Assembly (NCBI RefSeq): GCF_007483665.1
Contig: NZ_VIQO01000024.1
Span: 124,001 to 188,000 of the forward strand
Reading direction: 5' to 3'
Length of the DNA: 64,000 nucleotides
DNA from: Catellatospora sichuanensis
GTDB lineage: Bacteria; Actinomycetota; Actinomycetes; Mycobacteriales; Micromonosporaceae
Part shown: positions 18,109 to 24,172 of the stretch, one piece after another
Layout: each line of letters starts with the position of its first letter
Position numbering within the stretch: position 1 is the first letter of the stretch
Made by a program: the position numbers and the translations under genes
Notes under the pieces: generated by a model
The model's database searches: none
The model's input: only the letters and a program-made list of their open reading frames with translations
What the model was told of the DNA's origin: nothing

Positions 18109-18133
18109 CAACCCGAGGGCGCTTCGCTGCGTA
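18109..18133 (+). promoter_or_regulatory. ECF-type promoter 1: CAACC-N16-CGTA
   Basis: CAACC (18109-18113) and CGTA (18130-18133) are separated by 16 bp and lie ~20 bp upstream of the start of the first sigma-fusion gene, with GGAGG between. An AAC-containing -35 and CGT-containing -10 at this spacing are typical of ECF sigma promoters. The same arrangement occurs before the two paralogues. Confidence 0.6.
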
Positions 18134-18153
18134 TTGGGGAGCGGAGGTGGCGG

Positions 18154-19743
18154 ATGGACAGGTACGACGGTTTCCACGAGTTCGTGGTCGCGCGGGGCGG
18201 TGCGCTGTCGCGCACGGCGTTCCTGCTGACGGGGGAGCACCACGCGGCGGAGGACCTGGTGCAGTCGGCGCTGGCCAAGGCGGTGACCCGGTGGCGGCAG
18301 ATCGTGGAGTACGGGCAGCCGGAGGCGTACATCCGGCGCATCATGATCAACGAGCAGATCTCGTGGTGGCGGCGTCGCCGGGCGCGTCCTGTGGCCGAAC
18401 CGCCCGACCTGCCCGGCCCCGACGAGCCCCACCGGATCGTGGACCGGGTCGCGCTCGGCGAGGCGCTGGACACGCTCTCGCCCCGCCAGCGCGCCGTGGT
18501 CGTGCTGCGCTTCTACGAGGACCTGTCCGAGGCGGACACCGCCGCCGCGCTGGGCTGCTCGGTCGGCACCGTCAAGAGCCATACCCACCATGCCCTGGAT
18601 CGGCTCCGCCAGGCGCTGCCGCTGTACGCCGAGCACGCCGGCCAGTACGCCGATGCGCGTGCCGCCCTGGTCACGGCGCGGCGCCGCCGATCCCGCCGGG
18701 CGGCGGTGGCGGCGCTGGCCACCGTGCCGCTGCTGCTGACCGCCATCTGGTACGCGGTGCACGACCCGGCCGACGTGCCACCGCCCGTGACGGGGCCGCC
18801 CTCGGCGAGTCCGGTGTCGCTGCCCCCGCTGCGCCCACGTCCGGAGCGGCCGACGAGTGTGGGCGAGCTGCCCTCCGAGCGTGGCATCGGGGGCGCGTCG
18901 CTGCTGCTGGTGGAACAGGCCCCGGGTCTGGTGGAACTGGTCGGCGGTGACGGCGGCCTGTACTCCCACCTGGTGCCCGCCGACCAGCTCCTCAACGCGC
19001 CGACCCTGTCCCCGGACGGCCGCTGGCTCACCTGGACGACCGTCCGGGCGACGATGGTGCGCGACCTCACCACCACCACGGTGCGCGAGCTGCCGCCCTC
19101 GTCCGGCCCGCCCTTCTGGTCGCCGTCGGGTGCCTGGTTCCTCGTGCCGGGCACGCCGACCCGCGGCGACCTGCTCTACCGGATGCCGGACTGGACGGCG
19201 TACCCGCTCGCCCTGGTGGCGCCGGACCAGCTGGCCAGGGCGGTGCTGGACAGCGGTGAGCTGCTGCGTCTCGCGAGCCCGGTGAGCCGCACCGTCGCCC
19301 GGATCGAACTGATGGATCCGTTCACCGGGGTGGCGCGGAGCATCACGGTGGACGTGGGCGAGCTGCTCGACGACGGCGAATCCGTGGGCGGCGCCATCCT
19401 GACGAACGATGGATCGCCGCCGCGGATCGAGATCATGGTGGGGGCCGCCGGAGTGGCGGCTCTCCAGGTCGTGCCCGAGGAGCCGCCCGCCGGCGGTATC
19501 GCCCGCAAGAATTCGATGCTCGAATTTTCGACCGCGGACGGCCGGGTGCTGCGCCGCATCGACCTCGTGCCCGGCGTCGGCGTCTGGGCGCTCTGTTACC
19601 GGGGCGGGGATCTGCTGTGGAAGGACGGCACGCAGCTGCGGCTCAGGCCGTCAGGTGCGGCTCACGACGAGGTGGTGATGCCGCTCGACCCGGAGTGGGC
19701 GATCAGGCCACCCGGCTGCTGGGGCGTCGGGCGGGTCGCGTGA
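18154..19743 (+). CDS. ECF (SigE-family) sigma factor fused to membrane helix and extracytoplasmic propeller-like domain, paralogue 1
   Basis: A 529-residue protein. Residues ~5-75 form sigma region 2 (FHEFVVARGGALSRTAFLL, AEDLVQSALAKA, NEQISWWRRRR) and ~100-158 form region 4 (LSPRQRAVVVLRFYEDLS, then the helix-turn-helix GCSVGTVKSHTHHAL). After an Arg cluster (RRRRSRR, 177-183) comes one membrane helix (~184-202). The positive-inside rule puts the sigma part in the cytoplasm and the remaining ~325 residues outside. The exported part has a Pro-rich stem, then TolB/WD40-like repeats (LSPDGRWLTW, FWSPSGAWFL) and two cysteines near the end. No anti-sigma gene is adjacent. I infer a one-piece transmembrane sigma factor released or activated by an outside signal. 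Confidence 0.88.
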   Translation: MDRYDGFHEFVVARGGALSRTAFLLTGEHHAAEDLVQSALAKAVTRWRQIVEYGQPEAYIRRIMINEQISWWRRRRARPVAEPPDLPGPDEPHRIVDRVALGEALDTLSPRQRAVVVLRFYEDLSEADTAAALGCSVGTVKSHTHHALDRLRQALPLYAEHAGQYADARAALVTARRRRSRRAAVAALATVPLLLTAIWYAVHDPADVPPPVTGPPSASPVSLPPLRPRPERPTSVGELPSERGIGGASLLLVEQAPGLVELVGGDGGLYSHLVPADQLLNAPTLSPDGRWLTWTTVRATMVRDLTTTTVRELPPSSGPPFWSPSGAWFLVPGTPTRGDLLYRMPDWTAYPLALVAPDQLARAVLDSGELLRLASPVSRTVARIELMDPFTGVARSITVDVGELLDDGESVGGAILTNDGSPPRIEIMVGAAGVAALQVVPEEPPAGGIARKNSMLEFSTADGRVLRRIDLVPGVGVWALCYRGGDLLWKDGTQLRLRPSGAAHDEVVMPLDPEWAIRPPGCWGVGRVA

Positions 19744-19777
19744 TCCGGCGAAACCGTCCGGGCCGGAAGATGACCTC

Positions 19778-19802
19778 CAACCCGGGAGGGTCCTGTCGCG
19801 TC
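19778..19802 (+). promoter_or_regulatory. ECF-type promoter 2: CAACC-N16-CGTC
   Basis: CAACC (19778-19782) and CGTC (19799-19802), 16 bp apart, precede the second sigma-fusion gene; GGAGG follows at 19811-19815. The spacer sequence differs from that of promoters 1 and 3, while the two boxes are retained. Confidence 0.6.
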
Positions 19803-19821
19803 ATGAGGGCGGAGGTGGCGG

Positions 19822-21408
19822 ATGGACAGGTACGACGGCTTCCACGAGTTCGTCGTGGCGCGGGGCGGTGCGCTGTCGCGCACGGCGTTCCTGCTGACGG
19901 GAGAGCACCACGCGGCGGAGGATCTGGTGCAGTCGGCGCTGGCCAAGGCCGCGTTGCGGTGGCGCTGGCTGGTGGAGCACACGCAGCCGGAGGCGTACAT
20001 CCGGCGCATCATGATCAACGAGCAGATCTCGTGGTGGCGCAGGCGGCCCGCCCGGCCGGTCGCGCAGGTGCCCGAGCGGGCCGGTCCCGACGAGCCGGGG
20101 CAGGTCGTGGAGCGGATCGCGCTCGGGCAGGCGCTGGACACGCTCACCCCGCGGCAGCGCGCGGTGGTGGTGCTGCGTTTCTACGAGGACCTGTCCGAGG
20201 CGGACACCGCCGCGCTGATGGGCTGTTCCGTCGGCACCGTGAAGAGCCAGACCCACCTGGCGCTGGGTCATCTGCGGCGCGCGCTGCCGCGCTACGCCGA
20301 GCAGGCGGGCGAGTACGCCGACGGCGATGCCGCCCTGGCCCTGGCGCGACGCCGCCGGACCGGCCGCACGGTCGCCGCCGCGCTGCTGGCCGTGCCGATG
20401 CTGGCGGGCCTGCTGTGGTACGCCGTGCGCGGCCCCGACACCGTCCCGCCGCCGGTGGCCACCACACCGTCCGGCATCCCGACCCCGGTCAAGCCGCTGC
20501 CGGCACTGCCGACCCGGCTCGACCCGAACGCCCGGAGTGAGCCGCTGCCCACCGATCGCGGCCCCGGGCCGGCGGTGCTGCAGACGTACGACGACCGGAC
20601 GTCGACCGGGCCGCAGACCGTGCTGGTCATGGTCGACGGCCGCCACTACTCGGTCCCGCAGCCCGAGGGGGGTTTCGCGAGCAAGCCGACGCTGTCGCCG
20701 GACGGGCGCCGGCTCACCTGGTCGACGGCCGCGGCGACGCTGGTCCGCGACCTCACCGGAACCGAGGTGCGTGAACTGCCCGCGACGTCGACGGCCCCAC
20801 TCTGGTCGCCAGGGGGTGACTGGTTCCTGCTGCCGGCGCGGGCGGGCACCGGCGAGACGCTCTACCACCTGCCCGACTGGACGGCCCGTGAGCTCGCGCC
20901 CCTGTCGTCGTGGGACAGGACGACCAAGGTCGTGCTGGACAGCGGCGAGTTGCTGCGGTCCGCCGGCAGTCCCACCAGGACCACCGTCCCGTTGGAGGTG
21001 GTGGACCCGGTGACGGGCACCGTCCGGGCGATCACCGTCGACGCGGCCGACCGGATCGAGCCGGGCGAGTCGATGCGCAGCCTGGCGATCTTCGCGGCGC
21101 CCGGCGGCACCGCCGGGCTGGAGGTGATCGGCGGGGGTCCGAACGGGTCCGCCCGGGTGATGGTGGACGTGCTCCAGTTCTCGGCGGCCGACGGCCGGGT
21201 GCTGCGCCGGATCTCGCTGCCGCCGGACCGGATGGGGTTCCCGCTCTGCTTCCGGGGCGCGGAGCTGCTGTGGACGGATCTGGCGAGCATCCGCCGCGCG
21301 CCGGTCCCGCAGGGCCTCGAACTGCTGATGGAGCTCGACAGCCCCCTGAACATCGTGGAGCCTGCGGGTTGCCGTCGTTCCACGCAGCTCAGCTCCTTCG
21401 GCTCCTGA
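19822..21408 (+). CDS. ECF sigma factor-membrane helix-propeller fusion, paralogue 2
   Basis: A 528-residue paralogue of the preceding gene. The first ~60 residues are nearly identical to paralogue 1, including most codons, and region 4 is very similar (LTPRQRAVVVLRFYEDLSEADTAALMGCSVGTVKSQTHLAL). The membrane helix is ~185-202 (AAALLAVPMLAGLLWYAV), again after an Arg-rich stretch. The exported domain keeps LSPDGRRLTW, LWSPGGDWFLLP and the LDSGELLR element but is much more diverged. The C-terminal cysteines are in PLCFRGAELLW and EPAGCRRS. It begins 78 bases after paralogue 1 with its own promoter and the same GCGGAGGTGGCGG leader. Confidence 0.88.
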   Translation: MDRYDGFHEFVVARGGALSRTAFLLTGEHHAAEDLVQSALAKAALRWRWLVEHTQPEAYIRRIMINEQISWWRRRPARPVAQVPERAGPDEPGQVVERIALGQALDTLTPRQRAVVVLRFYEDLSEADTAALMGCSVGTVKSQTHLALGHLRRALPRYAEQAGEYADGDAALALARRRRTGRTVAAALLAVPMLAGLLWYAVRGPDTVPPPVATTPSGIPTPVKPLPALPTRLDPNARSEPLPTDRGPGPAVLQTYDDRTSTGPQTVLVMVDGRHYSVPQPEGGFASKPTLSPDGRRLTWSTAAATLVRDLTGTEVRELPATSTAPLWSPGGDWFLLPARAGTGETLYHLPDWTARELAPLSSWDRTTKVVLDSGELLRSAGSPTRTTVPLEVVDPVTGTVRAITVDAADRIEPGESMRSLAIFAAPGGTAGLEVIGGGPNGSARVMVDVLQFSAADGRVLRRISLPPDRMGFPLCFRGAELLWTDLASIRRAPVPQGLELLMELDSPLNIVEPAGCRRSTQLSSFGS

Positions 21409-21494
21409 CGGTGGCCGGGTCCGCCTCCCGCCGCCGCGCGAGAGGCGGACCGATGCCGCGGGGCCGCCTCCCGAACGCCCGTGCCGGATGATCC

Positions 21495-21519
21495 CAACCT
21501 CCGGGCACGCTGCCGCGTA
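21495..21519 (+). promoter_or_regulatory. ECF-type promoter 3: CAACC-N16-CGTA
   Basis: CAACC (21495-21499) and CGTA (21516-21519), 16 bp apart, precede the third sigma-fusion gene, with GGAGG at 21528-21532 and ATG at 21539. GCCGGATGAT just upstream of the -35 box is also shared with the promoter 1 region. Confidence 0.6.
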
Positions 21520-21538
21520 GGGGGAGTGGAGGTGACAG

Positions 21539-23164
21539 ATGAGCCGATACGACGGCTTCCACGAGTTCGTCGTCGCACGGGGCGGGGCGCTGTCGCGTAC
21601 GGCCTTCCTGCTCACCGGCGAGCATCACGCGGCCGAGGACCTGGTGCAGACCGCGCTGGCCAAGGCCGCGACCCGGTGGCGGCAGATCATGGAGTACGGC
21701 CAGCCGGAGGCGTACGTCCGGCGCATCATGGTCAACGAGCAGATCTCGTGGTGGCGGCGGCGTCCGGCGCGGCCGATGGCCGAGCTGCCCGATCGCCCCG
21801 GCCCCGATGAGCCCCACCGGGTGGCGGAACGGGTCACGCTCACCCGCGCCCTGGCCACCCTCGCGCCACGCCAGCGGGCCGTGCTGGTGCTGCGCTTCTA
21901 CGAGGATCTGTCCGAGGCGGACACGGCGGCCGCCATGGGCTGCTCGGTGGGCACCGTCAAGAGCCAGACCAACCTCGCGCTGACCAACCTCCGGCGTACG
22001 CTGCCGCTGGTCGCCGAGCATTCCGGGCAGTACGCCGACGCGCAGGCCGCGCTGGCGACGGCGCGTAGGCGGCGGACCCGGCTGGCGGGTGCGGCGGCGG
22101 TGCTGACAGCGCTGCCGCTGCTGCTCGGCGCGGCCTGGTACGCGCTGGCCGGCGCCACCCCGGTGCCGCCACCGGTGACCAGCTCGCCGAGCCCGTCCGT
22201 ACCGGCCCCGTCGATCTCGCCGGTGGCGCTGCCGCCGCTCCCCGCCGTCGTGCCGCCCGGTGACGTCCTGCCGGCCCTGCCCGCGGACCGGGGGGTGCGC
22301 GGCGGGGCGATGCTGCTGAGGAAGCAGACCCCGGACGGTCCCGTCTACGAGCTGGTCGGCGGCGACGGACGCCGGTACCGGTTGCCCGCCGAGCCGACCG
22401 GCGGCTTCACCACGGAGCCCGGCCTGTCGGCGGACGGTCGGTGGCTGATGTGGTCCTCGCCCCAGGGAACCGTGGTGCGCGAGCTGACCTCCTCGACCGA
22501 GCACCGGCTGCCGTACGCGGTCACCGAGGCACGCTGGTCACCCTCCGGGACCTGGCTCTTCGGACAGCGCCACCCGGAGGTCCAGGGGGTGCTCGTCAGG
22601 CTCGCGGACTGGTCGGTGCGGGAGTTCATCCCGCCCGATGCGGCCAGGCCCGTCGAGGCGCTGCTGGACAGCGGGGAGCTGTTGCGGCTCGGCAGCCTGA
22701 TCACCGACACCACCGTCACCCTCGACCGGGTCGACCCGCTGACCGGGGCCGCCCGCAGGATCACCGTGGACCTGCGGGGCGTGCTGCGGGCCGGGGAGTC
22801 CGCCGTCTCCGTCGAGATCACCCAACTGCCCAGCGGCGAACGCAGCCAGCTCGCCTTCATCCGGCCCGCCGCCGACGGCACCGCGGGCGTGGAGATCGTG
22901 CGATCCCGCGCCGGCAGCAACGAGTCGGTGGCGGCCGTGATCAGGTTCTCCCTCGCCGACGGCCGCGTGCTGCAACGGATCGACCTGTCGGCCGACGGCT
23001 TCTCGCTGCCCCTGTGCTTCCACGGCACGGATCTCCTGTGGACCGACGGCACGCGTGTCATCGGCTCCGCGGGTGCGGCCGCGTACCGGCTGCCGCTCGA
23101 TCCGGTGTATGGCTACAAAATGCCCGGGTGTGCCCGGATCGCCGACCGGGAGAAGACCGGCTGA
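21539..23164 (+). CDS. ECF sigma factor-membrane helix-propeller fusion, paralogue 3
   Basis: A 541-residue protein, the most diverged and longest of the three. Sigma region 2 (MSRYDGFHEFVVARGGALSR; AEDLVQTALAKAATRWRQIMEYGQ) and region 4 (LAPRQRAVLVLRFYEDLS; MGCSVGTVKSQTNLAL) are intact. The membrane helix spans ~183-202 (AGAAAVLTALPLLLGAAWYAL), followed by a longer Pro/Ser-rich stem (~205-250). The exported domain keeps LSADGRWLMW, RWSPSGTWLF, LLDSGELLRL and the cysteine pair PLCFHGTDLLW / MPGCARI. The high identity in the sigma part and low identity in the sensor suggest different signals feeding related promoter specificities. Confidence 0.88.
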   Translation: MSRYDGFHEFVVARGGALSRTAFLLTGEHHAAEDLVQTALAKAATRWRQIMEYGQPEAYVRRIMVNEQISWWRRRPARPMAELPDRPGPDEPHRVAERVTLTRALATLAPRQRAVLVLRFYEDLSEADTAAAMGCSVGTVKSQTNLALTNLRRTLPLVAEHSGQYADAQAALATARRRRTRLAGAAAVLTALPLLLGAAWYALAGATPVPPPVTSSPSPSVPAPSISPVALPPLPAVVPPGDVLPALPADRGVRGGAMLLRKQTPDGPVYELVGGDGRRYRLPAEPTGGFTTEPGLSADGRWLMWSSPQGTVVRELTSSTEHRLPYAVTEARWSPSGTWLFGQRHPEVQGVLVRLADWSVREFIPPDAARPVEALLDSGELLRLGSLITDTTVTLDRVDPLTGAARRITVDLRGVLRAGESAVSVEITQLPSGERSQLAFIRPAADGTAGVEIVRSRAGSNESVAAVIRFSLADGRVLQRIDLSADGFSLPLCFHGTDLLWTDGTRVIGSAGAAAYRLPLDPVYGYKMPGCARIADREKTG

Positions 23165-23206: not shown

Positions 23207-24172
23207 ATGGATGGTTCTCTGCCGATCGTCGACCTGTCCGCCGACCGTGCCGTCGTGGCCGCCGGGATCCGCGCGGCGTGCCGCGACAGCGGGTTCTTCT
23301 ACCTGACCGGGCACGGCGTCCCGGACGAGCTGCTCACCCGGCTCGACGCGGCGTCACGGGAGTTCTTCGCGCTGCCCGAGGACGAGAAGATGGAGATCGC
23401 GATGGCCCGCGGCGGGCGGGCCTGGCGGGGCTTCTTCCCGGTCGGCGGCGAGCTGACCTCGGGGCGGCCGGACCTCAAGGAGGGCCTGTACTTCGGCGCG
23501 GAGCTGCCCGCCGACGACCCACGGGTGGTGGCCGGGCTGCCGCTGCACGGGTCCAACCTGTACCCCCGGCAGGTGCCGGAGCTGGCCGCGGTGGTGCCCG
23601 CGTACCTGGCCGCGCTGACCGGTGTCGCGCAGGAGGTGATGCGCGGCGTCGCGGTGAGCCTGGACCTGCCCGAGGACTACTTCGCGAACGGGTACACGGC
23701 CGACCCGACGATCCTGTTCCGGATCTTCCACTACCCGCCGTCGCCGGCCGGGGACGACGGCTGGGGCGTCGGCGAGCACACCGACTACGGCCTGCTCACC
23801 CTGCTGGCCCAGGACGACAATGGCGGCCTGCAGGTGCGTACGCCGGCCGGCTGGCTCAACGCGCCGCCGGTGCCGGGCACGTTCGTCTGCAACATCGGCG
23901 ACATGCTGGACCGGCTGACCGGCGGCTGGTATCGCTCGACCCCGCACCGGGTGCGCAATGTCAGCGGCAACGAGCGGCTGTCGTTCCCGTTCTTCTTCGA
24001 CCCGGACTTCTCGGCCGAGGTGCCGCCGCTGCCCGGCCGGGCGCGCGAGGGTGCGGACGGCCACCCCCGCTGGGACGGCCAGGACCTGCGGGTGTTCACC
24101 GGAATGTACGGCGACTACCTGCTGGGCAAGGTGGGCAAGGTGTTCCCGCAACTGCGCGGCGAGGTCCTGTGA
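23207..24172 (+). CDS. 2-oxoglutarate/Fe(II)-dependent dioxygenase, isopenicillin N synthase-like
   Basis: A 321-residue non-heme iron oxygenase. The N-terminal DIOX_N region ([25 protein letters not shown]) is followed by the jelly roll with the metal triad H191-x-D193 (GEHTDYG) and H247 (RSTPHRVRN), and the co-substrate arginine R257 in RLSFPFFF. All catalytic residues are present. Actinobacterial relatives act in small-molecule oxidation, and the substrate here is unknown. It lies 42 bases after the third sigma-fusion gene on the same strand but has no strong ribosome-binding site, so co-transcription is possible, not proven. Confidence 0.88.

Follow-up and report, generated by a model that had tools for sequence, protein, structure and literature searches.

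A tandem array of SigE-family sigma factors apparently fused to Tt-TolB-like membrane partners in Catellatospora sichuanensis

The closest tested precedent for the proteins described here is Tt-TolB of Thermoanaerobacter tengcongensis, which has one transmembrane (TM) helix, binds the adjacently encoded extracytoplasmic function (ECF) sigma factor Tt-RpoE1 through its residues 1-39 and inhibits it; the Tt-RpoE1 promoter has an N16 spacer before CGTC (PMC3397946; here and for the other known systems we draw on excerpts of the papers cited). In the actinobacteria, the groups ECF48, ECF52 and ECF53 (SCO4117) are membrane-anchored, and autoregulation has been suggested for SCO4117 (PMC8999054, PMC5826349). 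IutY (ECF243) of Pseudomonas putida is a fusion of sigma and anti-sigma factor that is activated by proteolysis, and some members of ECF57, with an example from Singulisphaera, carry a WD40-like C-terminal extension for which regulation by protein interaction has been suggested (PMC8999054). Membrane-anchored ECF sigma factors and a TolB-like anti-sigma factor are each already known, and it is their combination in this sigma family that appears to be new here. We consider three tandem genes in a window of 64,000 nucleotides (the whole stretch analyzed, positions 124,001 to 188,000 of contig NZ_VIQO01000024.1 in assembly GCF_007483665.1) from the soil actinomycete Catellatospora sichuanensis. 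We put at about 0.6 the probability that each product is a one-piece signalling protein, in which a SigE-family ECF sigma factor is fused to a Tt-TolB-like anti-sigma sensor, is freed by cleavage and amplifies its own expression. Among the titles and abstract openings listed from the open literature, none describes a TM propeller joined to a SigE-family sigma factor.

The genes lie on the plus strand at 18154..19743, 19822..21408 and 21539..23164, and encode products of 529, 528 and 541 amino acids, as an earlier sequence-only reading of this DNA had proposed; the G+C fraction at their third codon positions (GC3) is 0.92-0.94. By profile match all three products are ECF sigma factors of the SigE family, scoring 181.6, 171.3 and 181.0 bits against TIGR02983 (SigE-fam_strep, cut-off 141.55), and Pfam sigma regions 2 and 4 are over cut-off in each, in keeping with the two joined regions that the same reading had recognized. 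Each protein has a single hydrophobic segment (residues 184-202, 184-202 and 182-200 in proteins 1, 2 and 3; 20371-20427 in gene 2 and 22082-22138 in gene 3). The 15 residues before it hold 7, 5 and 5 lysines and arginines and the 15 after it 0, 1 and 0, and given this excess on the N-terminal side the predicted topology is N-in/C-out, which agrees with the arginine cluster, single membrane helix and outward C-terminus noted earlier.

Structure prediction, which the sequence-only reading had called for, was run on protein 1 with AlphaFold and recovers the sigma regions, TM helix, stem and propeller. With 26 close rows in the alignment the sigma part was of low confidence; it improved with 55 rows, and the resulting model has a mean predicted local distance difference test score (pLDDT) of 86.3 and a predicted template modelling score (pTM) of 0.61. 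The sigma part (residues 1-156, 18154..18621; TIGR02983 over residues 5-156) has region 2 helices within 7-74 and region 4 helices within 91-164. It is followed by a juxtamembrane segment (residues 157-183, 18622..18702) and by the membrane helix, which hydrophobicity, charge bias and the model together place at about residues 184-205 (18703..18768) and which in the model alone spans 168-202, with 3 residues between the last region 4 helix and the TM helix (local pLDDT about 60-76). The Pro-rich stem (residues 206-235, 18769..18858) appears disordered, with pLDDT <50 at 207-218, and residues 236-529 (18859..19740) are all-beta with pLDDT mostly about 90, a predicted extracytoplasmic beta-propeller. 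As had been claimed, the sigma factor carries its tether and outer domain within a single reading frame.

The C-terminal domain of about 290 residues that follows the stem in all three proteins had been read as TolB/WD40-like repeats. The PD40 (WD40-like) family is above its cut-off in protein 3 alone (23.5 against 20.9; proteins 1 and 2 reach 16.3 and 15.3), so the propeller call rests on structure prediction; the all-beta propeller stands as a prediction from AlphaFold and Foldseek, while the repeat assignment passes in one protein of the three. Foldseek returns TolB and YVTN among many other propellers, with low whole-chain template modelling scores (query-normalized, about 0.2-0.33 for propellers). 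Its top match is TolB for the 26-row model and a microtubule-doublet chain for the 55-row model, and since the top match differs between models we take the matches to indicate a propeller fold, not a specific relative. All 26 fused proteins share Cys522, and 25 of the 26 have Cys481 (numbering of protein 1); these two may form a disulfide in the outer domain. Those of the separate membrane partners described below that were aligned with them are missing the corresponding C-terminal Gly-Cys.

To ask where the extension comes from, we considered its relatives. A profile of the C-terminal part finds them in 43 of 150 genomes drawn from the family, representing 15 of 44 genera with Catellatospora included (13 candidates scored per genome), and in 1 of 296 genomes phylum-wide, namely the window's own (6 candidates scored per genome, a depth at which distant relatives may be missed). 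Outside the genus there are 39 matches, and 19 of these loci were retrieved, one per genome (L068-L086; L, G and C numbers are our handles for loci, genomes and contigs). Fourteen of the 19 are split, with a sigma gene and an adjacent TM gene. Another, L078 in G119, is a single open frame that joins a sigma part without much of region 4 to a TM-propeller part, possibly a degenerate fusion, and the remaining L074, L081, L082 and L086 have no sigma domain at the threshold used, L074 having a broken sigma frame. Across all classified loci, which form a biased sample, having been gathered by similarity search, there are 62 sigma rows, comprising 36 split, 24 fused and 2 alone (L097 and L108), with gene C22:50257 counted twice, as L013 and L110. 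The lone status of L108 is probably a miss, as its genome matches residues 4-474 of a fused query with one internal stop. With start codons picked mechanically, the two genes overlap by 4 bases in 26 of the 36 split pairs.

A sigma-domain tree of 58 of these 62 rows (the two alone and two with short domains were dropped) has at least three changes of state on starred branches, with the fused proteins falling into three clades that are interspersed with split pairs. Support is 100/98 for the window-type clade of 13 rows, which groups with split pairs that include a pair on C8 of the same genome (support 87/88). The three changes could also be one gain and two losses, and the tree is rooted at its midpoint; repeated fusion is the simpler reading, because the fused rows lie among split rows, and fusion with the membrane partner has probably recurred. 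Descent of the fused proteins from a split pair of sigma factor and membrane partner is well supported by these comparisons. The architecture proposed in the sequence-only reading stands, and its interpretation of the extension as a built-in sensor and tether changes, as the extension looks like a fused membrane partner that remains a separate gene in relatives and in the C8 pair. On that resemblance, an anti-sigma partner is probably not absent but part of the same protein as the sigma factor.

The inner N-terminus of the C8 split partner, NYADARQAIGVARRRR, aligns with the fused juxtamembrane segment, QYADARAALVTARRRR, and it appears that both this inner segment and the membrane helix of the partner were retained when the genes fused. 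Between region 4 and the hydrophobic segment there are about 27 residues, as against 101 +/- 33 for a class I anti-sigma domain (PMC7406223), and a domain of that class therefore cannot fit, the model leaving 3 residues between the helices. No zinc-finger family was found in proteins 1-3 at E<=1 in a Pfam scan, and no cysteine occurs at residues 157-183 in any of the 26 fused rows. The groups ECF48, ECF52 and ECF53 share with our proteins a sigma part, a C-terminal TM helix, a Pro-rich outer region and an outer domain, but are described as having a zinc-finger anti-sigma domain, and SCO4117 a carbohydrate-binding domain as well. Judged by those descriptions the present proteins are set apart by a SigE-family sigma part, a propeller and the lack of a zinc motif between region 4 and the membrane. 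IutY is likewise a natural fusion of a sigma factor with its own membrane anti-sigma factor, but acts in siderophore signalling, and the excerpts mention no propeller. ECF57 shares the WD40-like repeats in a C-terminal extension, a likeness by description that leaves aside any relation to the SigE group, and differs in its Singulisphaera example and in the suggested regulation by protein interaction.

What the extension and its split relatives do reproduce is the layout of Tt-TolB, with a short inner N-terminus, one TM helix, a propeller-like exterior and, in the split relatives, an adjoining ECF sigma gene. Both systems pair an ECF sigma factor with a single-TM partner having a short inner N-terminus, and both have an N16 spacer, but there are two genes in Thermoanaerobacter and one protein here, and the -35 element is GTTAC there and CAACC here; the comparison is one of layout, not of inner-segment sequence. 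From this precedent and the likeness to the split partners, it is likely that the extension restrains the sigma factor.

The fused protein would thus sense conditions outside the cell and switch on genes inside it. At rest, the juxtamembrane segment and tether would hold the sigma domains off core RNA polymerase; a ligand or an envelope change at the outer propeller would set off regulated intramembrane proteolysis, in which a cut made either outside the membrane or in it would free the sigma part to transcribe its own gene and those of its paralogues from the promoter element described below. We favor release by proteolysis, by analogy, and the genome has a member of the site-2 protease family. 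A less probable though serious alternative is that there is no cleavage, and that the signal acts on the conformation or oligomerization of the membrane-bound protein, whose tethered sigma domains then engage RNA polymerase at the membrane, following the logic of membrane-retained activators such as ToxR and CadC. A membrane-fixed sigma factor would, however, be limited to DNA near the membrane. The 3 residues between the region 4 and TM helices in the model could let motion pass directly, and the outer cysteine pair hints weakly at a stable outer fold. Extensions of the ECF41 type are thought to act through conformational change, but IutY, the sole experimentally characterized membrane fusion named in the review, needs proteolysis (PMC8999054).

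The proposed self-amplification draws on an ECF-type element, CAACC-N16-CGT, upstream of each gene (18109..18132, 19778..19801 and 21495..21518, plus strand), recognized by motif comparison and genome scan. All 31 distinct upstream regions of window-type genes, that of gene 1 among them, have AAC-N17-CGT at one spacing, 36-46 bases before the start used; these regions are related by descent and include two interrupted copies and one decayed copy. Composition shuffles put the motif in 0.46 of the 31 regions on average and in no more than 3, and when the regions are aligned on the motif, CAAC and GCGT do not vary, unlike most columns of the spacer. It is likely, on this sequence evidence, that the element is an autoregulatory ECF promoter. 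AAC-N17-CGT also lies within 220 bases of 10 of the 36 split sigma genes, including that of the C8 pair. The sigma gene of a further split pair in the same genome (L017, G000 C14) has CAACC-N16-CGT 48 bases upstream, hinting at cross-talk.

In the window's own genome the strict motif CCAACY-N14-YGCGT has 16 sites, as does its reversed control. Three of the 16 are clear of predicted genes and lie 21 bases ahead of a start, in each case that of a fused sigma gene, gene 1 falling outside the strict pattern with its TCAACC. The other 13 fall within predicted genes, and two of these are also upstream of a start on the same strand, by 72 and 277 bases. A looser pattern has 302 sites over 11 Catellatospora genomes, compared with 232 for its reverse, and exceeds this control in 10 of the genomes; a control pattern with different spacing has 34 sites against 63 reversed. 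Sigma genes can explain this excess only in part, so further targets and a wider regulon are possible.

Several observations weigh against the account favored here. The NCBIfam scan of six split partners gave nothing at cut-off, with sub-threshold scores of 20.5 of 100 for 'anti-sigma factor' in one partner and 18 of 100 for CU044_5270 in another. Juxtamembrane inhibition is argued from the analogy to Tt-TolB and from split partners that are themselves uncharacterized, and the AlphaFold model, with its pTM of 0.61, was read for secondary structure and confidence, not for contacts between the segment and the sigma domains. All 14 control genomes also have site-2 proteases, which makes their presence here poorly informative. 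AAC-N17-CGT is absent from 26 of the 36 split pairs and from all 10 rows of the other two fused types of the genus, and the strict scan of the window's own genome yields no convincing target beyond the fused sigma genes. That the only clear motif-bearing promoters found are the sigma genes' own would also suit a different arrangement, in which the extension is an anchor and no more, transcription governs activity and the propeller has another job such as binding to wall or matrix. We regard this as quite unlikely, since the propeller, though fast-evolving, has a ratio of nonsynonymous to synonymous substitution rates (dN/dS) below 1 and keeps its cysteine pair, and the split partners mostly overlap their sigma genes.

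The three sigma parts are 81-83% identical over residues 1-156 and 95-100% over the first 43, while the propellers are 40-45% identical; the divergence of the outer domains seen in the sequence-only reading is borne out, but its near-identical sigma halves are rather less alike than that. In eight orthologue comparisons, simple pairwise NG86 estimates of dN/dS are 0.06-0.19 in the sigma part and 0.37-0.75 in the propeller, with the juxtamembrane segment, TM helix and stem, taken together, at 0.22-0.56, compared with 0.10-0.12 in three neighboring genes (against C. vulcania only). These figures support an outer domain that evolves fast over a constrained sigma part. We do not claim gene conversion of the sigma halves, for which there is a weak hint in the first 43 codons of genes 1 and 2 (the same base at 21 of 26 four-fold sites, where chance would give 45%; 50-75% in other sigma segments and pairs).

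Since the propellers differ over a common sigma part and promoter, a single self-amplifying output would receive several signals. More tentatively, the array may be a mutually amplifying sensor family, with fast-evolving sensors, near-interchangeable sigma parts and a common autoregulated promoter, built by repeated fusion with one-helix anti-sigma partners, in which any signal raises all. Were that so, the overlapping single-TM partners of actinobacterial SigE-family sigma factors would include a large, uncharacterized class of minimal anti-sigma factors. The array links the TolB-like anti-sigma factor and membrane-anchored sigma factors by a visible evolutionary path, and points to a possible role for the hypothetical single-TM proteins encoded by genes that overlap those of SigE-family sigma factors. 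It becomes testable whether a tether and a segment of about 27 residues are sufficient to silence a sigma factor, with the C8 split pair, also present in this genome, serving as a natural control for the fused form and the array offering diverging outer domains on one output.

Relatives at E<=1e-60 are found in all 11 Catellatospora genomes, G003 having one interrupted copy and two pieces at contig ends. In the family draw of 150 genomes, with 9 candidates scored per genome at this threshold, those 11 are the only ones to match (0 of 139 from other genera), and six named loci found by similarity are all from Catellatospora. The sequence-only reading had suggested a search of related genomes for array size and synteny, and the array indeed lies between genes for a flavin adenine dinucleotide (FAD) oxidoreductase and a 2-oxoglutarate (2OG)-Fe(II) oxygenase in three named species, with two copies in C. 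vulcania and three each in C. methionotrophica and C. paridis, the first of those in C. paridis being a divergent paralogue; further copies lie elsewhere in the genomes. It might be supposed that the array is decaying and its sigma-like proteins no longer drive transcription, given that G006 has a copy reduced to a stub, that a mobile element cuts a single copy in each of two genomes and that G003 holds pieces only, two of them at contig ends. The low dN/dS of the sigma part, close to that of neighboring genes, the motif retained in every upstream region and the matches in every genome of the genus make this very improbable.

In the window, too, the direct neighbors are the FAD oxidoreductase and the 2OG-Fe(II) oxygenase, and no anti-sigma gene lies between or beside the three genes, as previously noted. 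The oxygenase gene (23207..24172, plus strand) starts 43 bases after gene 3, has the same place in the three named species, and may be co-transcribed with the array as a candidate output. The same genome has a second tandem array (L015, G000 C4) of fused SigE-family sigma/TM genes encoding 464 and 479 amino acids; the outer domains of the two other fused types of the genus (L015; L013/L016) have no match to the C-terminal profile at E<=1e-3.

Two fused sigma genes are interrupted by inserted DNA, one by about 42 kb (L033/L065, G003 C2:72326-116285) and the other by about 39 kb (L041/L048, G006 C1:232199-272736), in a manner reminiscent of skin in sigK. Both interruptions fall within codons of the region 4 helix-turn-helix, and in both genomes a gene for a large serine recombinase (Resolvase and Recombinase domains) adjoins one end of the insert, that of G003 also having Replic_Relax and TrwB_AAD_bind genes; the helix codons look like the attachment site of the inserted element. 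In G006, a further array copy (L048) retains no more than its promoter element, a short tail and some 20 residues of the N-terminus, and adjoins the conserved 2OG oxygenase gene.

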